Part shown: in pieces, positions 2,015-23,903 of the stretch
Numbering within the stretch: position 1 is the first letter of the stretch
Layout: every line of letters starts with the position of its first letter
Assembly: GCF_002975435.1 (NCBI RefSeq)
Contig: NZ_PCPT01000001.1
Span: 124,001 to 188,000, forward strand
Origin: Arthrobacter sp. MYb227
GTDB lineage: Bacteria > Actinomycetota > Actinomycetes > Actinomycetales > Micrococcaceae
DNA length: 64,000 nucleotides
Reading direction: 5' to 3'
The notes under the pieces: generated by a model
The model's database searches: none
Told to the model about the DNA's origin: nothing
The model's input: only the letters and a program-made list of their open reading frames with translations
Program-made: the position numbers and the translations under genes

Positions 2015-4120
2015 CTAAGCGTCAATCCGGTCTCGTTCCAGCCCTTCGGCACCGGCGATAATGAATTCCTTACGTGGAGCCACGTCCGAGCCCATAAGCA
2101 AATCAAAAACACGCTCGGCACTTTCCGCTTGAGCCAGCCCCACACGACGCAGGGTGCGGTGACGCGGATCCATAGTGGTCTCAGCCAGCTGATCGGCATC
2201 CATCTCACCAAGACCCTTATAACGCTGCAATGGCTCCTTATAACGCTTCCCTGCAGCCGCAAGGGCATCAAGCACCTGATGCATCTCCGCTTCCGAGTAG
2301 GTGTAGATCATCTCGTTCGCTTTAGCTCCCGGGTTGATCACTTCAATACGATGCAATGGTGGCACCGCGGCATACACGCGGCCATGTTCAATCATCGGGC
2401 GCATGTACCGGAAGAACAAAGTGAGAAGCAGGGTACGAATATGTGCACCATCGACGTCGGCATCGGTCATCAGCACCACTTTGCCGTAACGAGCCGCCGA
2501 AATATCAAAGCTACGTCCCGATCCGGCACCAATCACCTGAATCATTGCCGCGCATTCGGCGTTCGAAAGCATATCGGCAACCGAAGCCTTCTGTACGTTC
2601 AGGATCTTGCCACGAATAGGCAGCAACGCTTGGAAGTCCGAGGAGCGCGCAAGCTTTGCAGTACCCAGGGCGCTGTCACCCTCGACGATAAATAGTTCGG
2701 AACGCGCAACATCATTGCTACGGCAATCTGCAAGCTTCGTTGGAAGCGATGAAGTCTCCAGCGCGTTCTTACGGCGCTGGGTTTCCTTATGCACGCGTGC
2801 CGAAACTCGCGACTTCATTTCGCTGACAATTTTTTCAAGTAGCATCGCTGCCTGAGTCTTGTCCCCGCGCGTTGTTGCATTGAGCTGCGCAGTGAGTGCC
2901 TTTTCAACAACCTTAGAAACAATTTGGCGCACCGCGGAGGTTCCCAAAATTTCCTTGGTCTGGCCTTCAAATTGCGGTTCGGCAAGGCGTACAGTAAGTA
3001 CGGCTGTCAGCCCGGCGCTCACATCGTCTTTTTCGATCTTGTCATTACCGACCTTGAGCTTACGAGAGTTAGCTTCGATGACCTTGCGGAAAGTTTTGAG
3101 CAAAGCCTGCTCAAAACCCGTCTGGTGGGTTCCGCCCTTGGGCGTGGAAATAATGTTGACGAAGGTGCGCACACTGGTTTCATAACCAATTCCCCAGCGC
3201 AGGGCTAGGTCAACATCGCAGACTCGTTCAACGTCGGTAATCTTACTGTGACCTGATTCATCGATCACTGGAACCGATTCCTTGAACGTTCCCGAGCCAT
3301 GGAAACGCCAAATGTCGGTTACTGCAGCATCGTTGGAAAGATACTCGACAAATTCGGAGATTCCACCATCGTGGTGGAATACCTCTTCAAAGCTTCCCTC
3401 GGCGCCTTCGGTATCGGGCAGTCGACGCTCATCACGCAGGGTAATTTTCAGCCCCGGCACCAAGAACGAGGTCTGCCGAGCACGGGTCTGCAGCTCGGTA
3501 TAGGAAAATTTGGCATCCGGGGTGAAAATCTGGCGGTCAGCCCAGTAACGCACGCGCGTACCTGTAACTCCACGTTTGGCCTTACCCACAACATCAAGTA
3601 CCGAAGCATCGGAGAACGGTTCAAAGGGTGCATCCGGTGTCGGCTTACCCGCATCCTTGAAACGTCCTGGCTCACCGCGACGGAACTGCATTCCATAGGT
3701 TTTGCCGCCGCGGTCCACCTGAACCTCAAGTCTGGAGGATAGTGCGTTCACTACCGAGGCACCAACACCGTGGAGTCCACCGGAAGCCGTGTAGGAGCCG
3801 CCACCAAATTTGCCACCGGCGTGAAGCTTGGTGAAAACCACCTCAACACCAGATAATCCGGTCTTGGGTTCGATATCTACGGGAATACCGCGACCGTCAT
3901 CGTGAATTTCCACGGAGCCATCCGGATGCAAAATAATATTGATGCTCTGCCCATGACCGGCTAGGGCCTCGTCAACAGAGTTATCAATAATCTCCCACAG
4001 GCAGTGCATGAGTCCACGCGAGTCGGTGGAGCCGATGTACATGCCTGGGCGCTTGCGAACCGCCTCGAGACCCTCTAGGACAGAGAGGTGTCGAGCGTTG
4101 TAGTCATTGGTGATGGCCAC
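2015..4120 (-). CDS. parE: DNA topoisomerase IV subunit B (type IIA topoisomerase ATPase)
   Basis: A 701-residue GyrB/ParE-family subunit that hydrolyses ATP to drive strand passage during chromosome decatenation. Visible in order are the GHKL ATPase motifs (DNSVDEALAG, DDGRGIP, GGLHGVGASVVNA), the transducer, and the TOPRIM motifs EGDSA and DADVDG. The ParE rather than GyrB assignment rests on location beside sigA instead of dnaA-recF and on EGDSALGTAKLARSSDFQALLPIRGK-type TOPRIM spacing; no parC is in view. I chose GTG at 4120 because GAGGAG lies 10 nt upstream and the protein then begins VAITNDYNARHLSVLEG like homologues. An in-frame ATG at 4183 would add 21 unlikely residues. Confidence 0.88.
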   Translation of the reverse strand: MAITNDYNARHLSVLEGLEAVRKRPGMYIGSTDSRGLMHCLWEIIDNSVDEALAGHGQSINIILHPDGSVEIHDDGRGIPVDIEPKTGLSGVEVVFTKLHAGGKFGGGSYTASGGLHGVGASVVNALSSRLEVQVDRGGKTYGMQFRRGEPGRFKDAGKPTPDAPFEPFSDASVLDVVGKAKRGVTGTRVRYWADRQIFTPDAKFSYTELQTRARQTSFLVPGLKITLRDERRLPDTEGAEGSFEEVFHHDGGISEFVEYLSNDAAVTDIWRFHGSGTFKESVPVIDESGHSKITDVERVCDVDLALRWGIGYETSVRTFVNIISTPKGGTHQTGFEQALLKTFRKVIEANSRKLKVGNDKIEKDDVSAGLTAVLTVRLAEPQFEGQTKEILGTSAVRQIVSKVVEKALTAQLNATTRGDKTQAAMLLEKIVSEMKSRVSARVHKETQRRKNALETSSLPTKLADCRSNDVARSELFIVEGDSALGTAKLARSSDFQALLPIRGKILNVQKASVADMLSNAECAAMIQVIGAGSGRSFDISAARYGKVVLMTDADVDGAHIRTLLLTLFFRYMRPMIEHGRVYAAVPPLHRIEVINPGAKANEMIYTYSEAEMHQVLDALAAAGKRYKEPLQRYKGLGEMDADQLAETTMDPRHRTLRRVGLAQAESAERVFDLLMGSDVAPRKEFIIAGAEGLERDRIDA

Positions 4121-4320
4121 GGTTTTAGTACTCCTCAAAAACGTCGGAACGACGCTATCCACAATAGTGCCCATCCCTGTCAATTCGCGTTTCGTAGCCC
4201 GTCAATGAGCCACAGCTCACCTGCCATGGGGCTACGCGGTGAGCGAAAGAGCGGATATTGGCGAAGAAAAACGGCAAATTACTGGTTGTATTAGGTACAC
4301 ATCAAAAGAAGGAGGTCATC

Positions 4321-4545
4321 ATGACATCGACAACGGTAACCCGACAGTTGAATGCTCTCGATCGTTGCGACCGCTGCGGAGCACAAGCCTTTGTGCGTGC
4401 GGTACTGGAGACCTCCGGAGGCGAACTATTCTTCTGCGGTCACCATGCTCGCGCAGTTGAAGCAAAACTTCGCCCCTTGACCATTGAATGGCAAGACGAG
4501 ACGGCTCGACTTTACGAAAAGCCTGTCTACGACGACGAGGACTAA
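4321..4545 (+). CDS. DUF7455 small zinc-ribbon-like protein
   Basis: A 74-residue protein with an almost perfect AAGGAGGT ribosome-binding site (4309-4316) before ATG 4321. Cys16-x2-Cys19 and Cys39-x-His41 form a likely zinc-binding knuckle. The tail is acidic (YDDED). This family (DUF7455) is recurrently found next to the principal sigma factor gene in actinobacteria, as here, where it sits between parE and sigA and diverges from parE. Its function is not established; by position and zinc site it may act with nucleic acid or the transcription machinery, which is inference only. Confidence 0.82.
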   Translation: MTSTTVTRQLNALDRCDRCGAQAFVRAVLETSGGELFFCGHHARAVEAKLRPLTIEWQDETARLYEKPVYDDED

Positions 4546-4595
4546 TCAGCGTCTTTAGCGGTAGTACCCGTTTCACCACTAAAGACTGTGTAGCA

Positions 4596-4640
4596 AAACA
4601 GGTTGGGCTCCGGCGAAAATCGCCGGAGCCCAACCTGTTT
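4596..4640. terminator. Bidirectional terminator, 20-bp perfect stem
   Basis: The arm at 4596-4615 is a perfect inverted repeat of 4621-4640 with a 5-nt AAAAT loop. It lies between the convergent DUF7455 and sigA genes. Confidence 0.8.
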
Positions 4641-4671
4641 AATGCCTACGAATACCGCTGGGCTTAATGCG

Positions 4672-4727
4672 AAAACGCCGGTTGGGGATTTCCACATAAT
4701 TGTTTGGAAACCACCAACCGGCGTTTT
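4672..4727 (-). terminator. Terminator of sigA
   Basis: AAAACGCCGGTTGG (4672-4685) pairs with CCAACCGGCGTTTT (4714-4727), with a partial inner stem (GGAAACC/GGATTTCC-like). It ends in a T-run on the minus strand, 12 bp past the sigA stop. Confidence 0.8.
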
Positions 4728-4739
4728 GGGTTTTAACTC

Positions 4740-5939
4740 TTAGTCGAGGTAGTCACGCAAGACCTGTGAGCGCGACGGGTGGCGCAGCTTCGACATGGTC
4801 TTTGATTCAATCTGGCGAATACGTTCACGGGTAACACCGTAAACCTTGCCAATCTCATCCAAGGTCTTGGGCTGACCATCGGTCAAACCAAAGCGCATTG
4901 CTACAACGCCAGCCTCGCGCTCGGAGAGCGTATCGAGAACCGAATGAAGTTGTTCCTGCAACAAGGTAAAGGAAACCGCATCCGCCGGAACTACTGCTTC
5001 GGAGTCTTCAATCAGGTCACCGAATTCCGAGTCTCCGTCCTCACCCAGCGGGGTGTGTAGGGAGATTGGCTCGCGACCGTACTTCTGGACCTCGACAACC
5101 TTTTCCGGGGTCATGTCCAATTCCTTGGCCAATTCTTCCGGGGTTGGTTCGCGACCCAAGTCCTGCAACATCTGGCGCTGGACGCGTGCAAGCTTGTTGA
5201 TAACCTCAACCATGTGTACCGGAATACGAATGGTACGAGCCTGGTCGGCCATCGCACGGGTAATTGCCTGACGGATCCACCAAGTTGCGTAGGTGGAGAA
5301 CTTAAAGCCCTTGGTGTAGTCGAACTTCTCAACTGCACGGATCAGGCCAAGGTTGCCTTCCTGGATCAAGTCAAGGAAGAGCATGCCACGCCCGGTGTAG
5401 CGCTTTGCAAGCGATACAACGAGTCGGAGGTTGGCTTCAAGAAGGTGGTTCTTGGCGATCTTTCCATCATGGATGATCTGCTCATAGTCCCAGCGCAAGC
5501 GCTTTTCCATCTTGCCGTCGTCAGCCATGAGCTTCTCATTGGCAAATAGACCAGCTTCGATGCGAAGCGCAAGATCGACTTCCTGCTCTGCATTAAGCAG
5601 AGCAACCTTACCGATCTGCTTCAGGTAGTCCTTGACCGGGTCTGCTGTGGCACCGGCGACCATGACCTGCTGCTGCGGGGCATCGTCTTCGTCTGCCGTG
5701 AGCACGAAGCCCTTGGAGTTTTCGTCACGCTTAGGTGCCGCCGGAGTCTCGTCAGCATCCTCGTCCAAGTCTGCTTCTTCGACTTCGGTCTCAACATCGG
5801 CCTTGACAGCCTTGGCACGGGACTTGGCCGGAGCCTTTTTTGCCGGAGCCTTCTTTGCAGGGGCCGCCTTGGCAGCCACTACCTTTGCCTCGGCAGCGTC
5901 CTCAGCCTGGCTATTGGTGGTCGTCTCAGAAGATGACAC
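4740..5939 (-). CDS. sigA: Primary RNA polymerase sigma factor
   Basis: A 399-residue group 1 sigma-70 factor that directs core RNA polymerase to housekeeping promoters. The N-terminal ~85 residues are low-complexity (repeated AKKAPAK, then acidic), as in actinobacterial SigA/HrdB. Region 1.2 ([11 protein letters not shown]) follows, then the region 2.3-2.4 core ([29 protein letters not shown]), region 3, and the region 4.2 helix-turn-helix [19 protein letters not shown]. It starts with GTG at 5939, with AGAAAGG 6 nt upstream. A TTGACA hexamer in the upstream 100 bp is a possible -35, but I found no convincing matching -10. The gene is convergent with DUF7455. Confidence 0.97.
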
Positions 5940-21737: not shown

Positions 21738-23162
21738 ATGTTCAAGAGTCCAGAAGAAGTAATCGCGTACATCGCTGAAGAAGACGTCAAATTCGTTGAC
21801 ATTCGCTTCACCGACATGCCCGGCGTTCAGCAGCACTTCAACGTCCCAGCACGCACGGTAGACGCCGATTTCTTCGTCAACGGCCAGCTCTTCGACGCTT
21901 CCTCAATTCGCGGCTTCGCCGGAATTGCCGACTCCGACATGCAGCTGATTCCGGATGTAAAGACCGGCTTCATCGATCCGTTCCGCTTGGAAAAGACCCT
22001 CGCATTCAATTTCTCGATCGTCAATGCACGCACCGGGGAACCGTACCACCGCGATCCGCGTGGCGTTGCGGAACGCGCAGAAGCCTTCTTGGCCTCCACG
22101 GGCATCGCGGATACAGCTTTCTTTGCACCGGAAGCCGAATTCTTCATCTTCGATAACGTGCAGTACGAATCAAAGCCACAGGGCTCCTTCTACAAAGTAG
22201 ATTCCATCGAAGCACCATGGAACACCGGCAAGAAGGAAGAAGGCGGCAACCAGGGTTACAAGACCCCCTTCAAGGGCGGCTACTTCCCGGTCTCCCCCAC
22301 CGACAAGCAGGCCGACCTGCGTGACGCCATCTGCCTGGAACTCGAAGCCGCAGGCCTCGAAGTTGAGCGCTCGCACCACGAGGTTGGTGCCGCCGGCCAG
22401 GCCGAAATCAACTACAAGTTCAACACGCTGACTCACTCGGCAGATGACCTGCTGAAGTTCAAGTACATCGTGAAGAACGTTGCAGATGCGTGGGGCAAGT
22501 CAGCAACCTTCATGCCTAAGCCAATCTTTGGTGACAACGGCTCGGGTATGCACTGCCACCAGTCGCTGTGGTCCAACGGAACACCATTGTTCTACGATGA
22601 GAAGGGCTACGCCGGTCTCTCGGATACCGCTCGCTGGTACATTGGCGGCCTGCTCAAGCACGCCTCGGCCGTTCTTGCCTTCACCAACCCCACAGTGAAC
22701 TCCTACCGCCGCCTGGTCAAGGGCTACGAGGCACCGGTGAACATGGTGTACTCGCAGGGCAACCGCTCGGCAGGTATCCGTATCCCTGTCACCGGCTCAA
22801 ACCCGAAGGCCAAGCGCATTGAATTCCGCGCACCGGATGCCGCATCCAACCCGTACCTTGCCTTCGCAGCACAGCTGATGGCAGGCCTTGACGGCATCAA
22901 GAACCGCATCGAGCCGGCAGACCCGATCGATAAGGACCTCTACGAGCTGCCGGCCGAGGAAGCCAAGGACATCCAGAAGGCTCCGGCGTCCTTGGAAGAG
23001 GCACTTGCGGCACTAGAAGAGGACTACGAGTTCTTGCTCGAAGGCGATGTGTTCACCGAGGACTTGATCCGCACCTGGATCGAATACAAGCGCGAATACG
23101 AAATCAAGCCGCTAGCACTGCGCCCGAACCCGTACGAATTCGAGCTGTACTACGGCTGTTAA
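21738..23162 (+). CDS. glnA: Type I glutamine synthetase, adenylylatable
   Basis: A 474-residue GSI-beta enzyme that condenses glutamate and ammonia using ATP. Seen: N-terminal FRDTDMPG-like [18 protein letters not shown]-equivalent DASSIRGF, the active-site [17 protein letters not shown] and NRSAGIRIP, and the regulatory Tyr402 in LYELP, the site modified by GlnE. AGGAG precedes ATG 21738 by 9 nt. The long upstream region carries GlnR-like boxes, so transcriptional nitrogen control is likely in addition to adenylylation. It ends before a 15-bp-stem terminator. Confidence 0.98.
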
Positions 23163-23200
23163 TAAGTACTCGTTGATCTCTCAGCAGATCAGCAAGGCAT

Positions 23201-23261
23201 AGAGGGGTCCATGTGATCGCCGGTGGTTCAACAGAACCAACGCGAGCACATGGACCCCTCT
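23201..23261. terminator. Terminator between glnA and HTH gene
   Basis: AGAGGGGTCCATGTG (23201-23215) pairs with CACATGGACCCCTCT (23247-23261), with an inner TGGTT/AACCA stem; the genes converge here. Confidence 0.8.
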
Positions 23262-23276
23262 GTCATGTCACCGTGT

Positions 23277-23480
23277 TTAGGTTTTCCTGCCGTAGCGCTG
23301 ATGCACGGCTTGCCGGCTCACCCCAAGAGATAGCGCGATCGCTTCCCAAGGGAATCCTTCGGTTCTGGCCCTACGTACTAGTACCGCTTCGCGTTGGCGT
23401 GCCTCGCGCTGGGCAGCGGCAAGGGCACCAAGCGCGTCAAGCACTCCATCTTCATCTTGTCCAAGTTTTGTCTTTGTCAT
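23277..23480 (-). CDS. Small helix-turn-helix DNA-binding protein (67 aa)
   Basis: A 67-residue protein: an acidic N-terminal segment, a charged helix rich in Arg/Glu/Ala (about 20-42), then a C-terminal helix-turn-helix (FPWEAIALSLGVSRQAVHQRYGRKT) similar to sigma-region-4-like HTH domains in many short actinobacterial regulators. AAGGGAG precedes ATG 23480 by 10 nt. Two identical 6-6-6 palindromes sit over its promoter, which suggests that it represses itself. It follows a cupin gene on the same strand. The target genes beyond itself are unknown, and the family assignment is by motif only. Confidence 0.78.
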   Translation of the reverse strand: MTKTKLGQDEDGVLDALGALAAAQREARQREAVLVRRARTEGFPWEAIALSLGVSRQAVHQRYGRKT

Positions 23481-23500
23481 GAGTAGCTACTCCCTTCAAG

Positions 23501-23546
23501 TGTCAATTTATCTTGACAAATAAAGACGTGTCAATACTTATTGACA
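23501..23546 (-). promoter_or_regulatory. Twin TGTCAA-N6-TTGACA operators and promoter
   Basis: Perfect dyads lie at 23501-23518 and 23529-23546, with centres 28 bp apart. On the minus strand the TTGACA of the upstream dyad (23534-23529) also serves as an ideal -35, with a 16-17 bp spacer to GATAAA/ATAAAT inside the second dyad, then the HTH gene ribosome-binding site. Both dyads therefore overlap core promoter elements, the layout of a repressor operator. Confidence 0.7.
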
Positions 23547-23573
23547 CCACTTGGGGTAACTCCCAGTCGAAAC

Positions 23574-23903
23574 CTAGCCAGCGATAGTCGTCAGCAGGAA
23601 CGCGCAATCGGTTTCGGCAAGCACACCGTGCAGGGCATCAGGCAGCACATATAGTCCGCCGTGTGAGATAGTTACCGACTCCCCGTTCCAGCGCACAATT
23701 ATGGTTCCACGCAGCACCAAAAGCGTTGCCGATTCGGGCTTCGGATGCTCGCTCAAGACTGCACCGGCGGTCATGGCCAAAAGTGTGTGCCGTAACCGTC
23801 CGTCTTTGAGCACAGCCACAGCGCTACGCCCGTTGGATGCCGCCTGCGCCTTGGTGAGTTCGCGGGTGACAAGATCATCGAGTTCTGCCTGAGTGATATG
23901 CAT
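23574..23903 (-). CDS. Cupin-domain protein
   Basis: A 109-residue single-domain cupin. A predicted beta barrel is indicated by GAVLSEHPKPESATLLVLRGTIIVRWNGESVTI and GGLYVLPDALHGVLAETD. The first cupin motif has His and Glu (SEHPKPES) but is imperfect, while the second retains PxxxHG, so metal binding is plausible but not certain. It could be a small-molecule sensor or a detoxifying enzyme. It is 93 bp upstream of the HTH gene on the same strand and 45 bp before the glnE end; the twin dyads lie between the cupin and HTH genes. Confidence 0.8.
   Translation of the reverse strand: MHITQAELDDLVTRELTKAQAASNGRSAVAVLKDGRLRHTLLAMTAGAVLSEHPKPESATLLVLRGTIIVRWNGESVTISHGGLYVLPDALHGVLAETDCAFLLTTIAG

Follow-up and report, generated by a model that had tools for sequence, protein, structure and literature searches.

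A probable stand-alone, self-repressing HTH protein of the ClpC2 type with twin dyads over its own promoter in Arthrobacter sp. MYb227

Introduction

Between the nitrogen genes glnA1 and glnE of Arthrobacter sp. MYb227 lie two small genes on the same strand, one encoding a cupin and the other a 67-residue helix-turn-helix (HTH) protein, and two inverted repeats occupy the gap between them. This arrangement raises the question of what such a short protein regulates and whether it belongs to a system that has already been described. We analyzed the locus in the window, i.e., the whole stretch of 64,000 nucleotides under study, and compared it to the loci of relatives. The feature is very likely a stand-alone, self-repressing HTH protein of the ClpC2 type, that is, a ClpC2-type HTH domain without the Clp_N sensor.

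Mycobacterial ClpC2 is reported to be an autorepressor whose HTH-containing N-terminal region is fused to Clp_N; twin GTCAA/TTGAC dyads lie immediately ahead of the ORF and overlap the -35 and -10 elements (PMC10030653). Its DNA binding, dimerisation and repression have been measured, and its Clp_N part binds cyclomarin A (structures PDB 8ADA and 8AD9; PMC10030653). ClpC2 is studied for sensing and soaking up Clp-directed antibiotics. The HTH region common to RelI and ClpC2 has also been noted before (PMC13284704). The original prediction considered the locus as not recognisable as a described system; its operator-promoter plan is in fact that of ClpC2 (PMC10030653), and its HTH is related to those of ClpC2 and RelI. 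The plan of autorepression through twin operators is therefore known already from mycobacteria (PMC10030653), and what is new here is the HTH standing alone, a form for which our limited literature search, which yielded the ClpC2 and RelI papers, gave no description.

Results

Organization of the locus

The cupin-HTH pair is flanked by glnA1 (21738-23162, plus strand) and glnE (26996-23958, minus strand), and both dyads sit between the two ORFs, 20 bp upstream of the HTH gene. The features are as follows.

23277..23480, minus strand: 67-aa HTH ORF of the ClpC2/RelI type, without effector domain (ORF translation); second gene, after the cupin
23574..23903, minus strand: 109-aa cupin ORF, first of the two same-strand ORFs; regular neighbour of glnE in the genus
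23529..23546, no strand assigned: distal candidate operator dyad TGTCAATACTTATTGACA (motif search; counterparts in relatives)
23501..23518, no strand assigned: proximal candidate operator dyad TGTCAATTTATCTTGACA, overlapping the -10 (motif search; counterparts in relatives)
23529..23534, minus strand: putative -35 element TTGACA, one arm of the distal dyad (consensus match only)
23505..23510, minus strand: putative -10 element TAAATT (TAnnnT), 18 nt from the -35 (consensus match only)
23490..23496, minus strand: Shine-Dalgarno-like AAGGGAG, 9 nt ahead of the ATG (suggested by the sequence)
23201..23261, no strand assigned: 20-nt inverted repeat (95%) between glnA1 and the HTH gene, where the two converge (repeat search and RNA fold)

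The dyads had been predicted to be two identical copies. Their half-site arms are indeed identical, both following the formula TGTCAA-N6-TTGACA, whereas their N6 spacers differ (TTTATC and TACTTA). They had also been said to overlap an ideal promoter. On the minus strand, TTGACA (23534-23529) and TAAATT (23510-23505) match 10 of the 12 consensus letters and overlap both dyads, with the -35 in the distal and the -10 in the proximal copy; the overlap thus stands, but the 18-nt spacing exceeds the ideal by 1 nt. Taken alone, one such promoter match per 901-bp stretch is not above shuffles (mean 0.6). At the other end of the gene, the RNA fold of 23195-23275 is a very stable hairpin (-49.7 kcal/mol, z -7.8). 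A sequence search found no other occurrence of its 13-base arm in the own genome, and the inverted repeat is a probable two-way terminator for glnA1 and the HTH gene.

The paired arrangement exceeds chance expectation

In the window alone, a search allowing up to two mismatches yielded four dyads, which is not above shuffles (mean 2.63). The original prediction had proposed a genome scan for further TGTCAA-N6-TTGACA sites that would define a regulon: across the 4.3-Mb own genome, the exact motif was found at the window pair and nowhere else, with none for the reversed control. The looser form YGTCAA-N6-TTGACR returned the same two places, and its reversed control also returned two. Across the family, 37 of 245 genomes carry the twin pattern GTCAA-N6-TTGAC..GTCAA-N6-TTGAC, and none carries its reversed control. 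Among the 41 places carrying this pattern, 37 immediately precede a gene for an HTH of the same family, and the remaining four all belong to a single genome (G171), where they form two triple arrays before serine hydrolase genes that are downstream of such HTH genes. Because the exact and twin patterns beat their controls and the window-only count does not, what goes beyond chance is the pairing of the dyads at the promoter, together with its recurrence.

Twin dyads accompany the HTH gene across relatives

HTH homologs, with paralogs counted, were detected in 129 of 245 family genomes (E <= 1e-3) and in 194 of 296 class genomes (E <= 1e-5). We assembled 80 loci from named genomes of Micrococcaceae, Microbacteriaceae, Georgenia, Nocardioides, Streptomyces and others; this set overlaps in part with our other locus set, and because the peptide patterns used to retrieve it contained the QAVH helix, the search itself largely determined the helix type. 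As originally predicted, the compact HTH gene comes with twin dyads of its own that cover the promoter, and this arrangement recurs across these relatives. A lack of dyads beside homologues was named at the outset as grounds for rejecting this arrangement, and in 80/80 named loci the search found a dyad shortly before the start of the HTH gene. Two dyads were present in 71 of the 80, with an inter-dyad step of 27-29 bp in 69 of these 71. Dyads in this set were located with GTCA-N8-TGAC, such that only the remaining positions are informative; the same motif occurs three times in the 600,749 bp of these loci outside the promoter. In a separate dyad check covering 34 loci, from which L066 was left out for want of the motif, all 29 best HTH matches outside the own genome (L004-L032) presented one or more dyads when up to two mismatches were allowed.

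The position of the dyads relative to the promoter is also conserved. The motif TAnnnT was found in or at the proximal-dyad spacer in 74/80 loci vs 12/71 for distal dyads. The proximal dyad ends at most 3 nt from the start codon in 64 of the 80 loci (ATG in 60 of the 64), counting from the first in-frame start codon past the dyad, a choice biased towards short distances; ~7% of the codons within these ORFs are start codons. Relative to the ATG, the most frequent layout places TTGACR near -35 and TAnnnT at -12 to -7, which would fit a leaderless mRNA. Most relatives look leaderless in this way, unlike the window copy, which appears to have a short leader with AAGGGAG. Identity among eight loci reached 89-91% in the half-sites, against 58% (distal) and 72% (proximal) in the N6 spacers and 53% in the inter-dyad spacer.

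These layouts bear on whether the distal dyad could be the intrinsic terminator of the cupin transcript rather than an operator. On the minus strand this dyad does form a hairpin, and a T-rich stretch comes after it; yet twin dyads precede HTH genes whose upstream neighbours vary, at steps of 27-29 bp and near the start codon, and we find the terminator interpretation scarcely credible.

Other relatives were observed outside these sets. A 9.9-kb contig of the own genome (C14, L209) has a 77-bp terminal repeat, encodes terminase, portal and capsid proteins and is probably circular. It also encodes a 100-aa HTH of the family, whose start codon is immediately preceded by two identical TGTCACCTAGAGTTGACG sites spaced 29 bp apart (L110, 2701-2747). 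Among 144 candidate stretches of viral contigs we detected three HTH relatives, one of which (L206) had no dyad by GTCA-N8-TGAC.

A probable operator-reading role for the HTH

The structural model of the window HTH predicts helices at residues 10-40, 45-52 and 56-64 (mean pLDDT 86), and the recognition helix corresponds approximately to SRQAVHQRY (residues 55-63). Fold searches with this model were non-significant: the top row of Foldseek was a sigma -35-binding domain (E 0.42) and VIA-align gave Z <= 5.0. RelI and ClpC2 were absent among the best 50 fold matches of each search, a result that is uninformative for so small a domain. Between the window HTH and its six genus orthologs dN was 0.18-0.25, with dS saturated or undefined.

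The relationship to ClpC2 was apparent from sequence profiles. The HMM of the HTH family matches 10/10 fused ClpC2-like proteins (E 4e-8 to 8e-7, in a search confined to those loci), and one of these proteins matches ClpC2 in the PDB (8ada, 8e-30); compared directly with the truncated 8ada, the HTH profile reaches an E of only 0.28. In the ClpC2-like translations the recognition helix is TKQAAQKRF, residues 73-81. This helix is missing from all four ClpC2-like PDB chains that we found: the chain of 8ada ends at residue 72, and 8ad9, 8b9o and 9p2p start past the helix.

We compared recognition helices with half-sites in 174 distinct loci, obtained from 186 by setting aside three whose helix falls outside the motif (L219, L229 and L315) and nine duplicates. 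An intact dyad was found in 148 of them and none, by a strict test, in 26. Among the dyad-bearing loci, QA or QG helices were accompanied by GTCAA in 136/136 and QS helices by GTCAG in 12/12, one QS locus having a GTCAA N7 match as well. The ten ClpC2-like loci all have a QA helix and GTCAA at N7 spacing. This covariation is clustered by kinship, related sequences being non-independent.

Using a Clp_N profile built in this analysis, we identified a Clp_N gene in 12 of the 80 named loci and none within the flank in the other 68, many loci being short or cut by contig ends so that absence means absence from the flank; the same profile found the gene in 15 of 144 loci. GTCAA occurs both with and without Clp_N, and GTCAG 11 times with and once without it. 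Because half-site and recognition helix covary, and because operators persist where no Clp_N is seen, the free-standing relatives point to the HTH as the part that probably reads the operator. For ClpC2, DNA binding was assigned by its authors to the Clp_N part, from the R185A/R189A mutant and the structures of residues 4-72 and 94-252 (PMC10030653). Mutation of R185/R189, which lie in the Clp_N part, weakens DNA binding (PMC10030653), a result for which an HTH-only model does not account, so the HTH is perhaps not the whole DNA-binding surface in ClpC2.

A further paralog in the own genome (C21; L210, 2257-3497) is followed by a gene whose Clp_N product has additional matches to polyketide-cyclase models. 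The two sites upstream of this HTH are half-intact, with TTGAC on one side and AGCAA on the other.

Targets beyond its own promoter

It is also conceivable that the HTH regulates other genes, such as the nitrogen genes, and that its own promoter is merely one target. Across 15 genomes of the genus, exact YGTCAA-N6-TTGACR occurred in seven, which are the same seven that carry the HTH beside the cupin. Of the 13 places involved, 12 are at the HTH's own promoter and one is elsewhere (G190:C30); the reversed control itself gave two places in G000, two in G022 and 0 in the other 13 genomes. In the own genome, sites with one mismatch numbered 31 vs 19 for the reversed control, an excess that would fit a wider regulator, but four of the 31 are the two window operators and the phage-like pair. 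The window has no other match at up to one mismatch, and no second strong target site, and no further exact one, was found in the own genome. Searches for exact and one-mismatch sites in the own genome and the 15 genus genomes thus made no wider regulon evident.

Nevertheless, two cases favour additional targets. In two places of G171 (L111 and L112), triple dyads precede a gene for a serine hydrolase located downstream of the HTH gene, and Cryobacterium breve (L183) shows a like arrangement, the three loci having two or three dyads before the hydrolase gene (beta-lactamase-like by eye). Because these dyads front the hydrolase gene, targets can be added, and this gene is a possible added target. 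On the whole, we consider a wider regulator rather unlikely for the window HTH. Separately, L153 and L190 present a same-strand gene after the HTH that is ABC exporter-like by eye and may be a co-regulated neighbour.

The cupin and the origin of the pair

According to the original prediction, the cupin and the HTH form a two-gene module in which the cupin would bind a small molecule and set HTH activity. The two are side by side in 7/15 genus genomes and in G017, and more distant cupins lie beside an HTH in two genomes of other genera (G078, and G238 in reversed order). However, the cupin adjoins glnE in 15/15 genus genomes, eight of which lack the window-type HTH (four of these eight have a more distant paralog), and such a cupin is present in the locus of only 3 of 80 named relatives, the other 77 being without it. 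Moreover, the HTH dyads come after the cupin gene and none come before it, and the cupin domain is recognized through weak Cupin_2/Cupin_3 matches below the Pfam cut-offs, with no other Pfam match at E <= 1. These counts do not support the pairing claim, and we regard a cupin-controlled HTH as unlikely.

The position between nitrogen genes had been attributed to a later insertion. In the genus, glnA1 is on the other side of the cupin in 14 of 15 genomes and was not seen within the 4-kb flank in G094. Of the 80 named loci, 14 have a glnA-type or glnE gene close to the HTH, as do loci of several further genera, so the own genome did not acquire the HTH recently. Its patchy presence in the genus plus G017 and G046 requires at least four gains or losses on the tree of the glnE, cupin and glnA1 parts. 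Given the fixed place of the cupin beside glnE and the HTH near glnA/glnE in other genera, we do not favour later insertion as the main account. In one locus without the HTH (L121, G156), a 584-aa ORF that is transposase-like by eye was observed between glnA1 and the cupin (3511-5265).

Discussion

Our results are best explained by autorepression. As a dimer, the 67-aa protein would use its recognition helix to bind each TTGAC-type dyad, and because the dyads cover the -35 (one copy) and the -10 (the other) of its own promoter, the HTH would shut off its own transcription and stay scarce. The gene would then switch on when the protein is lost or when a signal pulls it off the DNA. For the window HTH, binding, dimerisation and repression are expected by analogy with ClpC2. 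Several observations speak against this interpretation: 26 of 174 loci are without an intact dyad, 8 of 15 genus genomes are without the window-type HTH, and there is no obvious benefit in a repressor with no evident target besides itself.

More generally, we consider it fairly likely that a portable autorepression cassette, composed of the HTH and a twin operator-promoter, is the constant unit of the family, occurring alone as in the window, beside or fused to Clp_N as in ClpC2, or in a phage-like circular element, where its dyads are imperfect. The recognition helix would read the operator following a simple code, in which A or S after an invariant Q goes with GTCAA or GTCAG, respectively. 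If this is true, the sequence-specific DNA-binding site of ClpC2 moves from Clp_N to residues 73-81. Judging from these sequences, the family would be one of small autorepressors that are widespread in actinobacteria and have a compact twin operator.

Comparison with known systems

The window HTH shows a weak similarity to Sigma-70 region 4 (PF08281; 24.6 bits, E 1.9e-5, below the Pfam cut-off of 25.7), a Streptomyces relative scoring 26.0 bits, and its TTGAC half-site resembles the -35 hexamer. It differs in being a small free protein without the other sigma regions.

By sequence, the closest solved structure is RelI (9sdc_A; E 4.6e-8 by profile and 6.9e-5 by single sequence). RelI (PDB 9SDC) is likewise a small HTH of the same wider family, and from this similarity the window protein could be read as a RelI-like antitoxin or the remnant of a toxin-antitoxin pair. 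RelI, however, is paired with the RelS toxin, whereas no RelS/BrnT-type toxin adjoins the window HTH by Pfam: its neighbours are the cupin upstream and the convergent glnA1 downstream. Inverted repeats are constant here, whereas none are reported upstream of the RelI pair (PMC13284704). An antitoxin is consequently a highly improbable reading. With neither Clp_N nor a toxin-like neighbour, the window HTH is neither ClpC2 nor RelI.

The autorepressor that we favour comes closest to the ClpC2 systems. Split pairs of HTH and Clp_N genes occur in 12 Streptomyces loci (L189, L193-L201, L203 and L205) and at C21 of the own genome. They have the same HTH, accompanied in Streptomyces by the same twin operators, and differ in that the next gene encodes a Clp_N protein, which is not the case at the window. 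Compared with fused ClpC2, the window protein ends after the HTH, without the cyclomarin-binding Clp_N, and its neighbours are the cupin and glnA1; its dyads are 18 bp (N6) instead of the 19 bp (N7) found in 10/10 ClpC2-like loci, and its gene appears to have a short leader. What the two share is an HTH-containing region, N-terminal in ClpC2 and related by HMM to the window HTH, together with twin GTCAA..TTGAC operators over the -35 and -10.
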